Below are positions 47,461 to 64,000 of a DNA stretch of 64,000 nucleotides, piece after piece. The DNA lies in the NCBI RefSeq assembly GCF_028290025.1, contig NZ_JAQGKQ010000092.1, forward strand, positions 1 to 64,000, in the 5' to 3' direction. Below the pieces are notes generated by a model. It was given only the letters and a program-made list of their open reading frames with translations, did not search any database and was not told the origin of the DNA. The position numbers and the translations under genes are program-made. The stretch is from Cypionkella sp. Lineage in GTDB: Bacteria; Pseudomonadota; Alphaproteobacteria; Rhodobacterales; Rhodobacteraceae. Position 1 is the stretch's first letter, and each line of letters starts with the position of its first letter.

Positions 47461-48660
47461 ATGACAAAATCCGTATCCCTGCTGCGCTATTCGCTGGTGC
47501 TGGGCCTCGTTGCCGCTGTCGGTCCGTTCGCGATTGATATGTATCTGCCCGCGATGCCGAAGATCCAAAGCGATCTTGGCACCTCGATGCAGGCGGTGCA
47601 GTGGACGATTGTGGCATATTTCCTCGCCTTCGGTATCGCGCAACTGATCTACGGTCCGTGGGCCGATCAAGCCGGACGCAAGCCGCCGATGTATGCGGGC
47701 CTCGCCCTGTTCATGGTAGGCACGGTGATTTGCGCGCTTGCCCCTACAGTAGAGGTGCTGATCTTCGGGCGCTTCATCCAAGGCATTGGCGGCGCTGCCA
47801 ACATGGTGGTTCTGCGCGCGATGATCCGCGATCTCGCTACCGGAGCCAGCGCCACCCGGATGATGTCCACCATCATGATCGTCATCGCGATCTCGCCGCT
47901 GCTGGCACCGCTGTCAGGCTCGGCGTTGCTGGCGTTTGGCTCATGGCGGCTGGTATTCTGGGCGCTGCTGCTGGCGGCGACGCTCAGCTTCTTCCTGATC
48001 TATTTCATGGTGGATGAGACTTTGCCGCCGGAAAACCGCCAGCCATTCGACCTCGCCACCATGCGCAAAGGTCTCGCCGTGCTGTTCACCGATCGCAGCT
48101 TTCTCGCCATGACCTTCCTTGCAGGCTTTGCTTTCGCCAGCTTCTTCGTGTTCATCGCCTCGGCATCCTTCGTCTACACCGGCCAATTCGGCCTCAGCCC
48201 AACGCAATTCTCGCTGGCCTTCGCGCTAAATGCCTGTGGCTTCTTCGCGGCCTCGCAGTTCGCCGCGCCGATCAGCCAGCGTCTCGGATCAAAACGCATG
48301 ATCGTGCTGGCAACTACAGGATTTGGCACCGCCACCATCGCGCTTTTCTGCTTCGCCTTGGCCGGTTTTGCCAACCTTCACGTCACCATGGCAGGCTTGT
48401 TTATCGCCAATATGTTCCTCGGGCTGGTGCTGCCAACCGCGCAGGTTTTGGCGCTCGAGGAACAAGGCGAGCATGCCGGTCTGGCGGCATCCCTCGGCGG
48501 CACGATGCAGATGGTCGCGGCTGGAGTGCTGGTGGCTTTAACCGGCCCGTTCATGGATGGCACCGTGGTACCGATGCTGGGCGCGATTGCTTTGTGCGGC
48601 GTGATCGCGCTGCTGTTGTCGCGGCTGATCCCGCGTCAGGCTGCGGTGGCTGCGGTCTGA
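47461..48660 (+). CDS. Bcr/CflA-type MFS drug resistance transporter
   Basis: GPFAIDMYLPAMPKIQSDLGTSMQAVQWTIVAYFLAFGIAQLIYGPWADQAGRKPP. Confidence 0.92.
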   Translation: MTKSVSLLRYSLVLGLVAAVGPFAIDMYLPAMPKIQSDLGTSMQAVQWTIVAYFLAFGIAQLIYGPWADQAGRKPPMYAGLALFMVGTVICALAPTVEVLIFGRFIQGIGGAANMVVLRAMIRDLATGASATRMMSTIMIVIAISPLLAPLSGSALLAFGSWRLVFWALLLAATLSFFLIYFMVDETLPPENRQPFDLATMRKGLAVLFTDRSFLAMTFLAGFAFASFFVFIASASFVYTGQFGLSPTQFSLAFALNACGFFAASQFAAPISQRLGSKRMIVLATTGFGTATIALFCFALAGFANLHVTMAGLFIANMFLGLVLPTAQVLALEEQGEHAGLAASLGGTMQMVAAGVLVALTGPFMDGTVVPMLGAIALCGVIALLLSRLIPRQAAVAAV

Positions 48661-49646
48661 AGTTCGGCCAAAGCGGCGTCGAGCACATCCAGCCCCGCGC
48701 CGGGTTTATTTGCGCGTTCTGACAGCACCCGGCGCCAACCCCGCGCGCCGGGCCGCCCGGTGAACAGCCCGAGCATATGCCGGGTGATCTGATGCAACCG
48801 CCCGCCTTGCGCGATGTGATTGAGCATATAAGGCCGCATCGCCTCAACCGCGCCGAAGGCATCAGCGCCGGTGTCCGCTCCCCACAACGCATCCGCCCCG
48901 ACCAGCACCGAAGCCGGGTCATGGTAAGCGGCACGCCCCAACATCACACCATCAAGCCCCTGCTGCAGCAAGGTTTTCGCCTGATCCAGCGAGGTAATGC
49001 CGCCGTTGATACAAATCATCAAATGCGGAAACGCCGCTTTCATCCGCAAAACCAGATCGTAATTCAGCGGCGGCACTTCACGATTTTCTTTCGGTGAAAG
49101 CCCCTTCAACCAAGCCTTGCGGGCGTGCACAATAAAATGCGTCACCCCCGCCGCTGAGACTTTTTCAATGAAATCCGGCAGCACGATTTCCGGGTCTTGC
49201 TCGTCCACCCCAATGCGACACTTAACCGTCACCGGCACATTCGCCTCGGCCATCATCGCCGCCACGCAATCCGCGACCAGTGTGGGACGCTCCATCAGCA
49301 CCGCACCAAAACAACCCGACTGCACCCGATCTGACGGGCAACCGACGTTCAGGTTGATCTCATCATAGCCCCAATCGCGGGCGATCCTTGTGGCAGCGCC
49401 CAACTCATGCGGATCAGAGCCGCCGATTTGCAGCGCAATCGGGTGCTCCTCGGCACTGTAATCCAGCAGGCGGCTTTTCGGTCCATGCAGGATGGCGGCC
49501 GCTGTCACCATCTCGGTATAAACCATCGCACGCTTGGTCATTTGGCGGTGGAACACGCGGCAATGTCGATCAGACCAATCCATCATTGGCGCAACCGAAA
49601 GCCGATGCGCACCATAAGACATTGTCTTTACTACATTATCGTTCAT
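48636..49646 (-). CDS. dusA: tRNA-dihydrouridine(20/20a) synthase
   Basis: RLSVAPMMDWSDRHCRVFHRQMTKRAMVYTEMVTA; NLNVGCPSDRVQSGCFGAVLM. Confidence 0.96.
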   Translation of the reverse strand: MNDNVVKTMSYGAHRLSVAPMMDWSDRHCRVFHRQMTKRAMVYTEMVTAAAILHGPKSRLLDYSAEEHPIALQIGGSDPHELGAATRIARDWGYDEINLNVGCPSDRVQSGCFGAVLMERPTLVADCVAAMMAEANVPVTVKCRIGVDEQDPEIVLPDFIEKVSAAGVTHFIVHARKAWLKGLSPKENREVPPLNYDLVLRMKAAFPHLMICINGGITSLDQAKTLLQQGLDGVMLGRAAYHDPASVLVGADALWGADTGADAFGAVEAMRPYMLNHIAQGGRLHQITRHMLGLFTGRPGARGWRRVLSERANKPGAGLDVLDAALAELQTAATAA

Positions 49647-49710: not shown

Positions 49711-50874
49711 ATGGTGCAACCCAAGTTGCACGGAATCACATGGAGTTGCACGGGTATGGGAAGTTTACGGGAAGAAGCTGACAAAGCGGGAAATCCTATT
49801 TTTAAGCTAACGATAACAAGGACTAAGCAAAAACACCGAGAAACCCGATCTTTCCGTACCGAAACAGCAGCACGGGCTTGGGAAAAAAAGCGGGAAGCCG
49901 AACTTGATGCGACTGTAGCCCTAGGTAAGCCACTTACCAAACAACGCAACGAAGGCAAGACTCTAGGCGACGCGATTGACAAATACATCACCGAACAAAT
50001 GAAGGAAATAGGGCGAACCAAGACCCAAGTTTTGCAGACAATCCGCAACGAGTACGACATATCGAAAATGCGATGCGACCAAATAACCAGCCAAGACATC
50101 GTAGCGTTTGCTAAAGAATTGCATTTTCGGCCCAAACTTAACAGCGCCGCGACTGTAATGAATTACGTTAGCCATTTGCAGGCCGTATTTGCCATTGCTA
50201 AGGATGCATGGGATTTTCCGTTAGACATAACTGAAATGCAATCAGCCCAACGAGTTTGTTCAAGATTGGGTATTACCAAAAAGGCCATAAAGCGGACTCG
50301 TCGGCCTACTCTAGATGAATTGGATATCCTGCTAACTCATTTCCAGTTGGCATATAACGCACGTGCAAACGGTTGCCCAATGCACCTACTTTCCATATTC
50401 GCGTTATTTTCAACCCGACGACAAGCAGAAATAGAACGTATCGAATGGGCCGATTATGACAGAATAAACAAACGGATTTGGGTACGAGATATGAAACATC
50501 CCGGCGATAAGATAGGCAATGATGTGCCTGTTCTGTTGCCTGATCCATGCTGCGATATCATCGACAGTATGCCAAAAATTTCACCAAGAATTTTTCCGCA
50601 TTCAACCTACGCCATGAGCGCCAACTGGACTAGGGCTTGTCAATTCCACAACATTAAGGATTTACATTTTCACGATTTGAGGCATGAAGGCGTTTCGAGA
50701 TTATTCGAAATGGGGAAAACATTGCCCGAAGCCGCATCTGTATCCGGCCATAGATCATGGTCGAGTCTTCAACGATATACTCACATTATCACGGCTGGCG
50801 ACAAATACGAAAATTGGAAATGGATAAAGGTGGCAACAGACCCAACTTCCCATAACTTGAATCCCCAACCATAA
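49711..50874 (+). CDS. Tyrosine-type site-specific integrase (dusA-associated)
   Basis: FALFSTRRQAEIERIEWADYD...LHFHDLRHEGVSRLFEMGKTLPEAASVSGHRSWSSLQRYTHI; R..HxLR..H..Y-type motifs; starts at 49657 or 49756 also possible. Confidence 0.92.
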   Translation: MVQPKLHGITWSCTGMGSLREEADKAGNPIFKLTITRTKQKHRETRSFRTETAARAWEKKREAELDATVALGKPLTKQRNEGKTLGDAIDKYITEQMKEIGRTKTQVLQTIRNEYDISKMRCDQITSQDIVAFAKELHFRPKLNSAATVMNYVSHLQAVFAIAKDAWDFPLDITEMQSAQRVCSRLGITKKAIKRTRRPTLDELDILLTHFQLAYNARANGCPMHLLSIFALFSTRRQAEIERIEWADYDRINKRIWVRDMKHPGDKIGNDVPVLLPDPCCDIIDSMPKISPRIFPHSTYAMSANWTRACQFHNIKDLHFHDLRHEGVSRLFEMGKTLPEAASVSGHRSWSSLQRYTHIITAGDKYENWKWIKVATDPTSHNLNPQP

Positions 50875-51531: not shown

Positions 51532-51765
51532 TCACGGCCCATCATGCAGACCCGCATTCAATACATGGCGATAATACGCTTCAAACTTTTGATTCAAATC
51601 AATATACAGATCGTCAAAATCCATTTTACTCAAACCATGAATCGAACGGGCATGTGCAAGAAACTTTTCAATCTCTTGATCAATAGTTTCATCGCCAGAA
51701 AAAGGTTGAAGAATAATATTAGCTTGCAACCATTCTTGTAATATCGAACCTGCATTATCGGCCAT
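51532..51765 (-). CDS. Small acidic hypothetical protein
   Basis: MADNAGSILQEWLQANIILQPFSGDETIDQEIEKFLAHARSIHGLSKMDFDDLYIDLNQKFEAYYRHVLNAG. Confidence 0.6.
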   Translation of the reverse strand: MADNAGSILQEWLQANIILQPFSGDETIDQEIEKFLAHARSIHGLSKMDFDDLYIDLNQKFEAYYRHVLNAGLHDGP

Positions 51766-53606: not shown

Positions 53607-54275
53607 GTGACACCGACGCCCAAAACAGTCCTGTATGTACGTTGCTCGACATCTGAGCAAACGAGTGCGCACCAGATCACCCAAGCCCGCGATGCTGGAT
53701 TTGTATTCGACGACTCCCATGTCATTACAGATCATGGCGTGTCAGGCGTCTCGACCAAGTTAAAAGATCGCGACCAAGGAAAACGTCTGTTTGATCTACT
53801 CCAGCCCGGTGACACGCTTCTAGTACGTTGGGTCAATCGGATCGGGCGGGACTACATGGACGTAAAGACCAACATAGAGTCCTTTCTGCGACGCGGTGTT
53901 ACCGTAAAGACAGTAATTAACAATATGGTGTTCCATCCCGACCATGTGTTGAAAGACCCCATGCAGATCGCCGCCCGTGATGCCGTCCTCGCGTTCATGG
54001 TTGGTATCGCTGCTGCCGAAGCCACTGCAGCGCGTGAAGCCCGTCGCGCAGGGATTGATCACGTTATGGACTCGGCGAACAAAGCCGACAAATATCGCGG
54101 TAAGAAACCGGGCTTTGACCGCAAAACCCTTGAAGCAGTGCTGACTTCACTTGCTGCCGACGCGCCAAACATAAGCATCATTGCCCGCGATAACGACCTG
54201 ACACGGCAAACCGTCATGCGAATCCGCAAAAATCCTTTAAATGCTGATACTTCGCTTCGAAAATGGGGGCTTTGA
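53607..54275 (+). CDS. Serine recombinase (resolvase/invertase family)
   Basis: VLYVRCSTSEQTSAHQITQARDAGF; VRWVNRIGRDYMDV; C-terminal HTH NISIIARDNDLTRQTVMRI; GTG start. Confidence 0.9.
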   Translation: MTPTPKTVLYVRCSTSEQTSAHQITQARDAGFVFDDSHVITDHGVSGVSTKLKDRDQGKRLFDLLQPGDTLLVRWVNRIGRDYMDVKTNIESFLRRGVTVKTVINNMVFHPDHVLKDPMQIAARDAVLAFMVGIAAAEATAAREARRAGIDHVMDSANKADKYRGKKPGFDRKTLEAVLTSLAADAPNISIIARDNDLTRQTVMRIRKNPLNADTSLRKWGL

Positions 54276-54439: not shown

Positions 54440-54694
54440 TTACTTCCATGGCAGATCATCAGCGATGGCAGATTTTGCAGCGTTCAAAAAATCTCGTTCG
54501 GTATCCGATAAGATGCTGGAAAACTTAGAAATGCTTCCTACCAGATAGTTCATTTCAGTTTTGTTTTCGTCACTTACAAGATGCTTACCTGCCCCCAAAT
54601 CACACTCTAAAATATCAAGGCGGGCTTGAATTTTTTCACTTAAATTCATGTATTTTCCAACAATAACAAATCCCTCTTGTACCGCTATTTCCAC
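54440..54694 (-). CDS. Small hypothetical protein
   Basis: 84 aa MEIAVQEGFVIVGKYMNLSEKIQARLDILECDLGAG; overlaps upstream small ORF. Confidence 0.45.
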   Translation of the reverse strand: MEIAVQEGFVIVGKYMNLSEKIQARLDILECDLGAGKHLVSDENKTEMNYLVGSISKFSSILSDTERDFLNAAKSAIADDLPWK

Positions 54695-54861
54695 TTTGCT
54701 TCTGGGTCGTATTTGAGTGCCGAAACTATTCTAGCGCGCGATCGTTGATCTTCCACAGACAACATTCCGGGCGTGGTGTACAACAGCTTTATTATTAATT
54801 CTTCACTCATGTCAGTTGAGGGTATTTCGGCGCGGATAATTGCGAGTGCCTCGGGATCCAT
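54685..54861 (-). CDS. Small hypothetical protein
   Basis: 58-aa ORF below the track cutoff: MDPEALAIIRAEIPSTDMSEELIIKLLYTTPGMLSVEDQRSRARIVSALKYDPEAKWK. Confidence 0.45.
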   Translation of the reverse strand: MDPEALAIIRAEIPSTDMSEELIIKLLYTTPGMLSVEDQRSRARIVSALKYDPEAKWK

Positions 54862-55465
54862 CGAATTAATATTTCCTTTGCGATAAATGATTTGGCATCC
54901 AACACGCGGAAATGCTAGCTTTCGTGATGATGCTCGGAATTAATCCAACATTAATCGAAAATTGGCATATATGCAAATCAGTTAATAGTTTACTATGCAT
55001 TTTTCGTTATTATTTCGGTATGACATAACCGACCAATCAGGAGGCGCTTATAAATTGTGTTCAGAAATGAAGGCGGTTGTGGCGTCACGGTCTTCGTCAA
55101 GATGCGCAACGAAATTGAAACTCTCTTTAGCAATAGGGAAGACACCCTTTGGACCGTGCATGCCGTAACGCATAAGTTGACGTCACTCATCGAATAGTGT
55201 CGGTCTCATCGAGCAGCAGGGGATAACCTAACGGACGAGATGTGGGTCTTGCCGTGCTGATTTTCGGCAGCATCGGATGGCTCACCCACAAGCAATATAC
55301 GGTCAATGACGAATACAACGGGCTACCGCGCCGCATCCTCCGCCCCATCGTAGGCACGAGAGTATTGCCAGTAAGCGACTGCCCAACCTTGTCGACCATC
55401 CACCGATTGATTTCTGTCTGCGCACTGAGCATCGCAAAAATAGACCGCACTTCGATACTGCTTGC

Positions 55466-60805: not shown

Positions 60806-61324
60806 GTTGATGCTCTGCTCTCCATCCCTGAACCACTCATCCGCAACGACATTAATGGCACTGTGCTGACATATGCCCGTTGGGGTTTGCCCACTCGGGA
60901 ATCTTTCCTCGTTGGCAAGAAAACGGACAGAGGAGTAACAAACATTCGTAACCCTGCATCGCCTCATTGGCGTAGATGGTTGCGCCCGCCTAATCGATGC
61001 CTTGTGCCGCTGTCGAAGTTCGCGGAATCCATACCCGGTGGCAATGCATGGTTTGCCCTGCCCGATGATCAACCTGCATTCTTTGCTGGCCTGCATGTTC
61101 CGCAATGGACGTCTACTCGCAAGTTGAAGGATGGCGAAACCACAGACGACCTTTACGGCTTTCTGACATGCGCACCCAACTCCGAAGTGGCTGAAGTTCA
61201 CCCCAAAGCTATGCCAGTAATTTTGACCAATCCAGTCGAATGGAATACGTGGCTTAATGGGGCATGGGATCAAGCCAAAGCGTTGCAGCGGCCATTGCCC
61301 GATGGTGCATTGATCAGACTGTAA
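60806..61324 (+). pseudogene. 5'-truncated SOS response-associated peptidase (SRAP/YedK/HMCES family)
   Basis: IPEPLIRNDINGTVLTYARWGLPTRESFLVGKKTDRGVTNIRNPASPHWRRWLRPPNRCLVPLSKFAE...AFFAGLHVPQWTS...PNSEVAEVHPKAMPVILTNPVEWNTWL; in-frame tga at 60803; N-terminal catalytic MCxx region absent. Confidence 0.85.
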
Positions 61325-61971
61325 TCGACTGAAAACACGTTCCGTAACACCTTCCTAAACACGCGGATTCAGCATCAAAAACTGGGTCAAAATCGGCCCA
61401 AATCGACTGAAAACCGCTCGATATCCTGGATAATATATCGTGTAAAATCATCAGGTTATAGTGTTTGCTCAATAAAATAACTCAATTAAACGTCATTTAA
61501 CGAATATTGGGGTAGGGATATGCCTACCTTTTGCATATTTGGCTGAATTAGCGTCTCGCGACTGTTAGTAACATGTTGATATTGTTGCGTTAATTTAAAG
61601 TCAAAAATTCCAAATTGCAGATTAAAAAAGTTGGGGCAGTTTTGCGGAACGGAATATTGAGTCTGCCTTCAGCATCGGTTGGATCACGGCATGATATCCC
61701 TTTCCATAATGTTGATAACGGAATTTCGAATCCTGTTGGATATACCTGTTTATTATATCTCCATAAGGTTTGGATGTTGGTTTTGTTAGTATGAGTTTAC
61801 ATTTGAATTTTGAATGCAAAGTGTATGAATCAAAATAGAGGGGGCAAGATCGCGCTTGCGATTTGACCGCTTGAACGGATGAGGTCTTGCCGAATGAGTG
61901 AAAGAGATAATTTTTAGTGCTGACCGACAGGGAAGTACGTTGATACGTGAGTCAACATTCTGATTCAAACA

Positions 61972-62204
61972 AGCTTTATCCAAACAGGATTCCTTACAGT
62001 GACAAATTCAGGAGCAAAGCGACGTTTAACTTGATACCTTCCAACTTTATCCAAACAGGAAATCCAAATGGGATATTTTAGGAGCAAAGCGACGTTTAAC
62101 ATCAGACCTTTCCAACTTTATCCAGATGAAGATTCCTTACAGCGATATTTCAGGAGCAAAGCGACGTTTAACTTGATTCTTTCAACTTTATCCAAGTGAA
62201 AATG
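61972..62204. repeat. About 71-bp tandem repeat array (3 full units plus 1 partial) with DnaA-box-like motifs
   Basis: Units 61972-62042, 62043-62113, 62114-62183, partial 62184-62204; conserved CTTTATCCA and AGGAGCAAAGCGACGTTTAAC. Confidence 0.92.
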
Positions 62205-62893: not shown

Positions 62894-64000
62894 ATGGCTT
62901 TAGTCCACTCCGATAAAATCAATACCCCTATTCTCACTGTTGAACAACAATCGGCCTTTGATGGCATTATCAATCAAACTACTCCAACATGCGTTATTGC
63001 TGGTTCGGCAGGCACGGGTAAATCCCAACTCATAGCAGCCTTAGCAGCCCATTTTGGCGATAGAGCGATGTTCGTTTCCCCAACTCATAAAGCCGCCCAA
63101 GAGTTGTCAAAGAGGGGCAATTTGAAAGTATACCAAGTTGCTGCTTTGTTAAAGAATTTGGCAGTCAAAGCAATGTTGTTCGAGAAAAAGGTTACGCATA
63201 TCATTGTTGATGAAGCATCAATGATCGACCGGAAAACCAAGATTCTGATTGAGAAATACATTGCTGCGAATGCGGCTTCCCAAATCAATGTTGTGTTTTT
63301 GGGTGATCCAAATCAACTTCCCCCTGTCAACACAGATATTGTCGAAATGCAGCATGATTGGTTTCATTCTGTTAAACCTGACTTCATCTTGACCAAAGGC
63401 TTCAGACAAGACTCCAACACGACTATCAAAGTTGTTATGGATGCGCCGATTGATCCAAACCGCAAAACCATATGCGTGACAAACTACATGCGAAACAAAA
63501 TCAATGTTGCCAGTCACGAAATCAAACACGGGAAAACGAAAGCTTACACATGCAGACGCCGCAAGCAAATTTTGCAACCACATGCTGGTGATACTCTGAT
63601 TTGTTACAATCCACCTGTTGGTATGATGTTTCGGAACAACTGCGAATACGTTATCAAATCCATTTCAGATGATACCGAAGTTGATGGAACGCAATGCTTC
63701 AAAATTCTGTTTGAGGAATCCCGTAAATCCATCATGGTTCCAAAATCTGTATTTCAAATCAAGGGCAAGAAAAAAGACGATAGAGACGCGAAACGCGACT
63801 TCGAATTTGCTTATGCATTAACTGCACATGCCGCCCAAGGATCGGGATATGACAATGTGATTGTTTACTTGGAACGTAATGCCGTAATGGCCGATGATGG
63901 CGAAACGGTTGAATATAAATCTGCCTTTGATACCGCTTACATGCAGCGTTGGCTATACACTGCTATTACGCGCGGCAAGAAGTCAGTTTTGGTTGTTGAT
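62894..64000 (+). CDS. SF1B helicase, Dda/RecD2-like, partial (runs off window)
   Basis: Not in the ORF track (no stop in window). CVIAGSAGTGKSQLIAALAAHFG (Walker A), IIVDEASMID (Walker B), VVFLGDPNQLPPV, AYALTAHAAQGSGYDNVIVYLE, MQRWLYTAITRGKKSVLVVD. Confidence 0.9.
   Translation, partial: MALVHSDKINTPILTVEQQSAFDGIINQTTPTCVIAGSAGTGKSQLIAALAAHFGDRAMFVSPTHKAAQELSKRGNLKVYQVAALLKNLAVKAMLFEKKVTHIIVDEASMIDRKTKILIEKYIAANAASQINVVFLGDPNQLPPVNTDIVEMQHDWFHSVKPDFILTKGFRQDSNTTIKVVMDAPIDPNRKTICVTNYMRNKINVASHEIKHGKTKAYTCRRRKQILQPHAGDTLICYNPPVGMMFRNNCEYVIKSISDDTEVDGTQCFKILFEESRKSIMVPKSVFQIKGKKKDDRDAKRDFEFAYALTAHAAQGSGYDNVIVYLERNAVMADDGETVEYKSAFDTAYMQRWLYTAITRGKKSVLVVD

Follow-up and report, generated by a model that had tools for sequence, protein, structure and literature searches.

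A putative cis-acting repeat module shared by an integrative island at dusA and a sister island in Cypionkella

Results

The repeat array lies in an integrative island at dusA

We analysed the first 64,000 nucleotides of a Cypionkella sp. contig (hereafter, the window). Here, dusA, which encodes tRNA-dihydrouridine synthase A (48636–49646, minus strand; Pfam Dus PF01207, E 2.4e-79), is the target of an insertion. A low-GC island of ~15.9 kb starts at the 5' end of the gene and spans about 49.6–65.5 kb of the contig. GC content is 39–53% between the duplicated dusA ends and about 60% in the flanks. One island end is the dusA 5' end itself (49579–49644). Its duplicate, past the window at 65443–65505 of the contig (10444–10506 of locus L007), aligns over 66 bp at 77% (blastn) and includes TCCATCATTGGSGCMACCGAAAGCCGATG, 29 nt with 2 mismatches.

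Directly beside dusA is a gene for a tyrosine integrase of the DAI type (49756–50874, plus strand; Pfam Phage_integrase PF00589, E 9.2e-11), whose relatives within the same bacterial family reach 57% identity. It is followed by a small gene, ORF A (51532–51765, minus strand), by a serine resolvase gene (53607–54275, plus strand; Pfam Resolvase, E 2e-17), and by ORF B with the next small gene, ORF C (54440–54986, minus strand). Cargo includes glycosyltransferase genes and an ORF of the SRAP family (60863–61324, plus strand; Pfam SRAP, E 5e-12) that stops at the left edge of the module described below. This ORF covers profile positions 55–197 only, and its N-terminal part is absent from the listed ORFs of the window; hence it may be a pseudogene. 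The array follows at 61972–62204. The island also contains an H-NS-family gene near the array (L007 9360–9749) and a PrtN/RdfN-type gene (L007 10086–10346; PF11112, E 1.8e-20).

In PMC4482086 (Farrugia et al. 2015), dusA-specific islands are described as having an integrase at dusA, semi-conserved end repeats and, in 63.8% of cases, a prtN homologue. The island studied here shows the same hallmarks: an integrase gene beside the dusA 5' end, a duplicated dusA boundary with semi-conserved direct repeats, a PrtN homologue and variable cargo. We therefore assign the host of the array to this type, which bears out the original prediction that the array sits in an integrated element. What differs is that the available text on such islands makes no mention of a conserved module or a 71-bp array like the present one.

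Downstream of the array is a gene for a Dda/RecD2-like SF1 helicase (62894–64000, plus strand, running on to ~64168 of the contig; AAA_30/UvrD_C_2; PHROG 'Dda-like helicase'). It begins about 690 bp beyond the array, in the same orientation, and is the replication-type helicase originally noted ~700 bp downstream. The relatives of this helicase in phages and plasmids are distant (about 24–30%), and none of 101 related genomes contains a close one.

The array comprises regular non-coding units

The array, on the plus strand, consists of three units of 70–72 bp and one partial unit. The count and phasing originally proposed are both present in the window sequence: TTATCCAAA occurs at 61976 and 62047, TTATCCAGA at 62118 and TTATCCAAG at 62188, so that the motif common to them, CTTTATCCA, returns at 71, 71 and 70 bp. 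The identical block claimed for the full units was likewise confirmed. This 21-nt block, AGGAGCAAAGCGACGTTTAAC, has exactly three copies, at 62010–62030, 62080–62100 and 62152–62172 (spacing 70 and 72). Tandem Repeats Finder places its top-scoring array of the window here (62007–62195, period 70, 2.7 copies, score 241). With up to 3 mismatches allowed, a 20-mer of the array was found three times, versus 0.01 expected per window, and at no other site in the 4.3-Mb genome assembly. We regard the array as non-coding, since its 71-bp period is not divisible by 3 and none of the long ORFs of the window runs across it. Tandem Repeats Finder also reported a separate 15-bp repeat, GCTAAACGCAGACTG, with 5 copies at 2067–2151 of the window.

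A sister island contains a diverged copy of the array and its upstream region

The same genome has a second copy of the array close to where its contig C42 ends, in an island that we refer to as the sister island. In blastn comparisons, the two islands match only in ORF A (67% DNA identity; protein 56% identical), in ORF B together with ORF C (516 bp, 75% DNA identity; ORF B 51% identical at the protein level) and in the non-coding stretch that contains the array. The order and orientation of these three parts are the same in both islands. The remaining cargo differs, the C42 island having a PARIS-type AriA/AriB pair and another serine resolvase. The AriA/AriB genes are at 47–2145 of L003 (C42:47000–55165), on the minus strand (PADLOC AriAB, E 7.7e-121 and 2.6e-53), and are followed by a DUF2971 gene.

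The matching non-coding stretch, which we term the module, is ~870 bp long, covers ~61326–62204 of the window and reaches ~640 bp upstream of the array. It begins with a set of 12-bp repeats, followed by a palindrome, then by a conserved block of 74 bp and finally by the array; C42 keeps this order. The blastn blocks measure 223 bp (72%), 91 bp (78%), 60 bp (78%), 37 bp (89%) and 39 bp (82%). Thus, module identity is about equal to that of the shared backbone genes, though the module encodes no protein.

At the left edge of the module (61326–61393, plus strand), phased direct repeats place AACAC at 61334, 61346 and 61358; the C42 copy has five AACAC at exact 12-bp steps and one extra. In one frame these repeats read NTFQ-like, for which reason they could be a coding remnant; differences by codon position number 3/3/7. 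The next conserved segment (61496–61541, plus strand) lies in AT-rich DNA and is near-invariant between the islands. It contains TTTAACGAATATT, the palindrome GGTAGG (61511–61516)–6 nt–CCTACC (61523–61528), and TTTTGCATATTTG. As single-stranded DNA, the palindrome folds with –5.5 and –6.7 kcal/mol. The conserved 74-bp block, TGCGGAACGGAATATTGARTCTGCCTTCAGCA...CTTTCCATAATGTTGAT, is at 61644–61717 (plus strand), with a little-conserved stretch between it and the array. Short ORFs on the opposite strand (61640–61717 of the window, minus strand; L003 7327–7617) share QHYGK..HAVI...LKADSIFRSA; a hand count gave no clear codon-position bias, so these ORFs are probably a by-product of DNA conservation.

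In the array itself, both islands have three AGG...CGTTTA units with ~70–74-bp spacing. In the window all three blocks have one sequence, and the C42 blocks differ from it, which suggests that the units have been homogenised within each island. Immediately past the C42 array, where the contig ends (L003 7983–8149), lies a different 54-bp repeat with 113-bp spacing (GGGGTAAA...CCCATGTTTCTAAAG...).

Could the array be neutral, a tandem duplication within an island undergoing decay? The identity of the three window blocks is what recent homogenisation would produce, and at least one island gene, the SRAP ORF, is apparently truncated. However, the number of units, their spacing and the flanking blocks all survive in the sister island despite 22–28% divergence, and we consider a neutral origin improbable. 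That this repeat-rich non-coding DNA persists in islands whose cargo differs points to a function in cis that serves the element itself. On this comparison of sequences, the designation of 61326–62204 as a conserved cis-acting module of an integrative island family is well supported. The block-wise pattern of constraint comes from one pairwise comparison, since the data include only two copies of the module.

We also considered tandem small RNAs. The regular units, in which one constant block alternates with stretches that vary, have the look of such an array, and C42 units contain the small hairpins GGTGC-GATA-GCGCC and GGCT-GATA-AGCC. These perfect 4–5-bp stems with GATA loops, considered also as a DNA hairpin common to all units, are absent from the window units, where the stem is lost. 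Moreover, unit RNAs fold no better than shuffled sequences, the six units yield no consensus RNA structure, and searches of the array gave neither an Rfam match nor a terminator-like site. The array shows no conserved RNA fold, and we consider it very unlikely to encode tandem small RNAs.

No further significant copy of the module in the genomes searched

One possibility raised at the outset was that copies might be dispersed genome-wide. This is not the case: the sole second copy in the genome is the matching module of the sister island. The wider search that had been proposed, of related genomes and plasmids, likewise returned the C42 module as the only significant second copy. A profile of the unit found no further significant copy in 397 genomes of the family, other matches being weak (best E 0.004), and module DNA found none in 148 and 196 relatives. 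Among the 196 relatives, the C42 module gave its two best hits at 12-bp repeats that appear to lie within coding sequence, the second as judged by eye; the remaining hits are 21–41 bp long. No significant copy of array or module DNA was detected in plasmid and phage records, and searches with exact patterns gave no further significant copy in genome and viral contigs. Five viral contigs matched the pattern of the 12-bp repeats, and on inspection none resembled the module.

Two relatives with ORF B homologues, G041 and G185, gave no match to the unit model. In dusA-type islands of relatives, the stretches compared at the distal end, several of them cut short by a contig end, contain no comparable non-coding array. 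The ORF B relative of G041 is in an apparent small element adjoining a tRNA gene (L066, G041:C37, 12740–14448), where the 3' end of the tRNA recurs at ~14000 and a stretch of 155 bp is found again 567 bp away at 81%. In G185, the ORF B relative is accompanied by a type I restriction-modification locus, and ~2 kb upstream of them lies a 151-bp repeat (L067, G185:C35, 11633–11911; 1.8 copies at 94%) that contains GCGCGAAGCGC-type inverted repeats.

Under another reading, the module is an origin of transfer, or a site for phage packaging or hijacking, in an island that has no recognised relaxase or capsid genes and draws on helper proteins able to recognise it. Against this, no helper with a matching sequence turned up in the plasmid and phage collections, the viral contigs or the rest of the genome. 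No known nic site was identified in the module either. On the other hand, the conserved palindrome followed by the conserved TTTTGCATATTTG, together with the long repeat-rich non-coding stretch, would suit a site of this kind, as would the lack of a recognised relaxase among the island ORFs scanned. Mobilisable islands may bear just an oriT mimic, according to PMC8409611. We judge a transfer or packaging site rather unlikely, though it comes second among the readings considered.

The array is not a set of DnaA boxes

The original prediction described the repeated motifs as phased DnaA-box-like sequences, the first three differing by one base from TTATCCACA. The single mismatch is literally correct but carries no weight: one-mismatch TTWTNCACA sites number 63 in the window, versus 76 expected by chance, and so are not enriched. 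There is no exact TTWTNCACA box, as a DnaA-dependent origin would have, anywhere near the array. On C42, the only related array, the corresponding positions read TCATCCAAA, TCATCCAAA and AAATCCAAA, with the TTATCC core lost and the adjoining CGTTTA unchanged. What is conserved in the unit is thus AGG-variable-CGTTTA...ATCCA, and not a DnaA box. These data argue against the DnaA-box reading, and we reject it. The likeness to chromosomal oriC and other DnaA-box arrays is limited to TTATCCA-containing repeats next to AT-rich DNA; the present array lacks a consensus box, its core has not been kept on C42, and its spacing is long.

Sites for the PrtN-type factor were sought with ATTG-N2/3-GT, which we take to be a P-box-like pattern. 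Each island has one chance-like match, and these candidates were discarded.

A regulatory role was considered as well, with the array serving as a binding site for control of the helicase operon or as a silencing region for the H-NS-like protein encoded nearby. The array is upstream of the helicase gene in a shared orientation, and AT-rich DNA with an H-NS-family gene close by would be in keeping with silencing. Yet ~690 bp separate the array end from the helicase gene, promoter-like matches are at chance level, and conservation extends ~640 bp in the other direction, upstream of the array. A regulatory function thus appears rather improbable. The association of module and helicase was seen once, because C42 ends ~270 bp past its array.

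Discussion

The module is most likely a control site that the island needs for copying or moving itself. As to which kind, we tentatively favour an origin-type locus, a reading to which we give somewhat less than even odds but which we rank above, in descending order, a transfer or packaging site, a regulatory region, a neutral duplication and small RNAs. We infer this origin function as a step beyond the conserved cis-acting status of the module. The original suggestion of an ori/iteron region thus stands in part: a mobile element, direct repeats, an AT-rich stretch, a palindrome and a nearby helicase make an origin-type locus a reasonable guess, and the DnaA component falls away.

A direct-repeat array beside AT-rich DNA is the arrangement of iteron-type origins, although the unit lengths here are unlike the 17–19-bp iterons given in PMC7433901. 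That paper describes SGI1 oriV as four 17-bp iterons beside AT-rich DNA. For the SGI1-like Vibrio dusA islands, PMC8409611 reports a PrtN homologue, RdfN, as excision factor, a PF13538 helicase in one island, and a copy number of ~3 per cell for a studied island in which no replicon was recognised. The features shared with our island are repeats beside AT-rich DNA, PrtN-type (RdfN) excision and, in some, a PF13538 helicase. Unlike SGI1, with its 17-bp iterons, DnaA box and rep gene, the present module has ~71- and 12-bp units and no DnaA box. Scans of the island ORFs against Pfam, PHROGs and NCBIfam recognised no Rep family, and the ORFs scanned likewise included no recognisable relaxase.

If the module is an origin-type locus, the integrase and the PrtN-type factor would excise the island as a circle. 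A sequence-specific protein, either encoded by the island in a form that the scans did not recognise or supplied by a helper plasmid or phage, would bind the 71-bp and 12-bp repeats, after which the AT-rich and palindromic stretch would open. Replication of the circle would then start at the module, perhaps aided by the adjacent helicase. We infer the binding protein, the melting, the replication and the helicase role from the layout of the locus. It is possible, if somewhat doubtful, that the module represents an undescribed type of origin locus of an alphaproteobacterial island family, defined by 12-bp repeats, a palindrome, a 74-bp block and a ~71-bp array. Such islands, which carry no recognisable initiator or relaxase, would depend on a helper protein that binds to or otherwise recognises the module.

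What began as an isolated repeat array can now be viewed as part of a defined cis module, open to experimental test, in a family of mobile islands. Were the module an origin, it would offer a candidate answer to how dusA islands without a recognised replicon, such as the one noted in PMC8409611, replicate or move.
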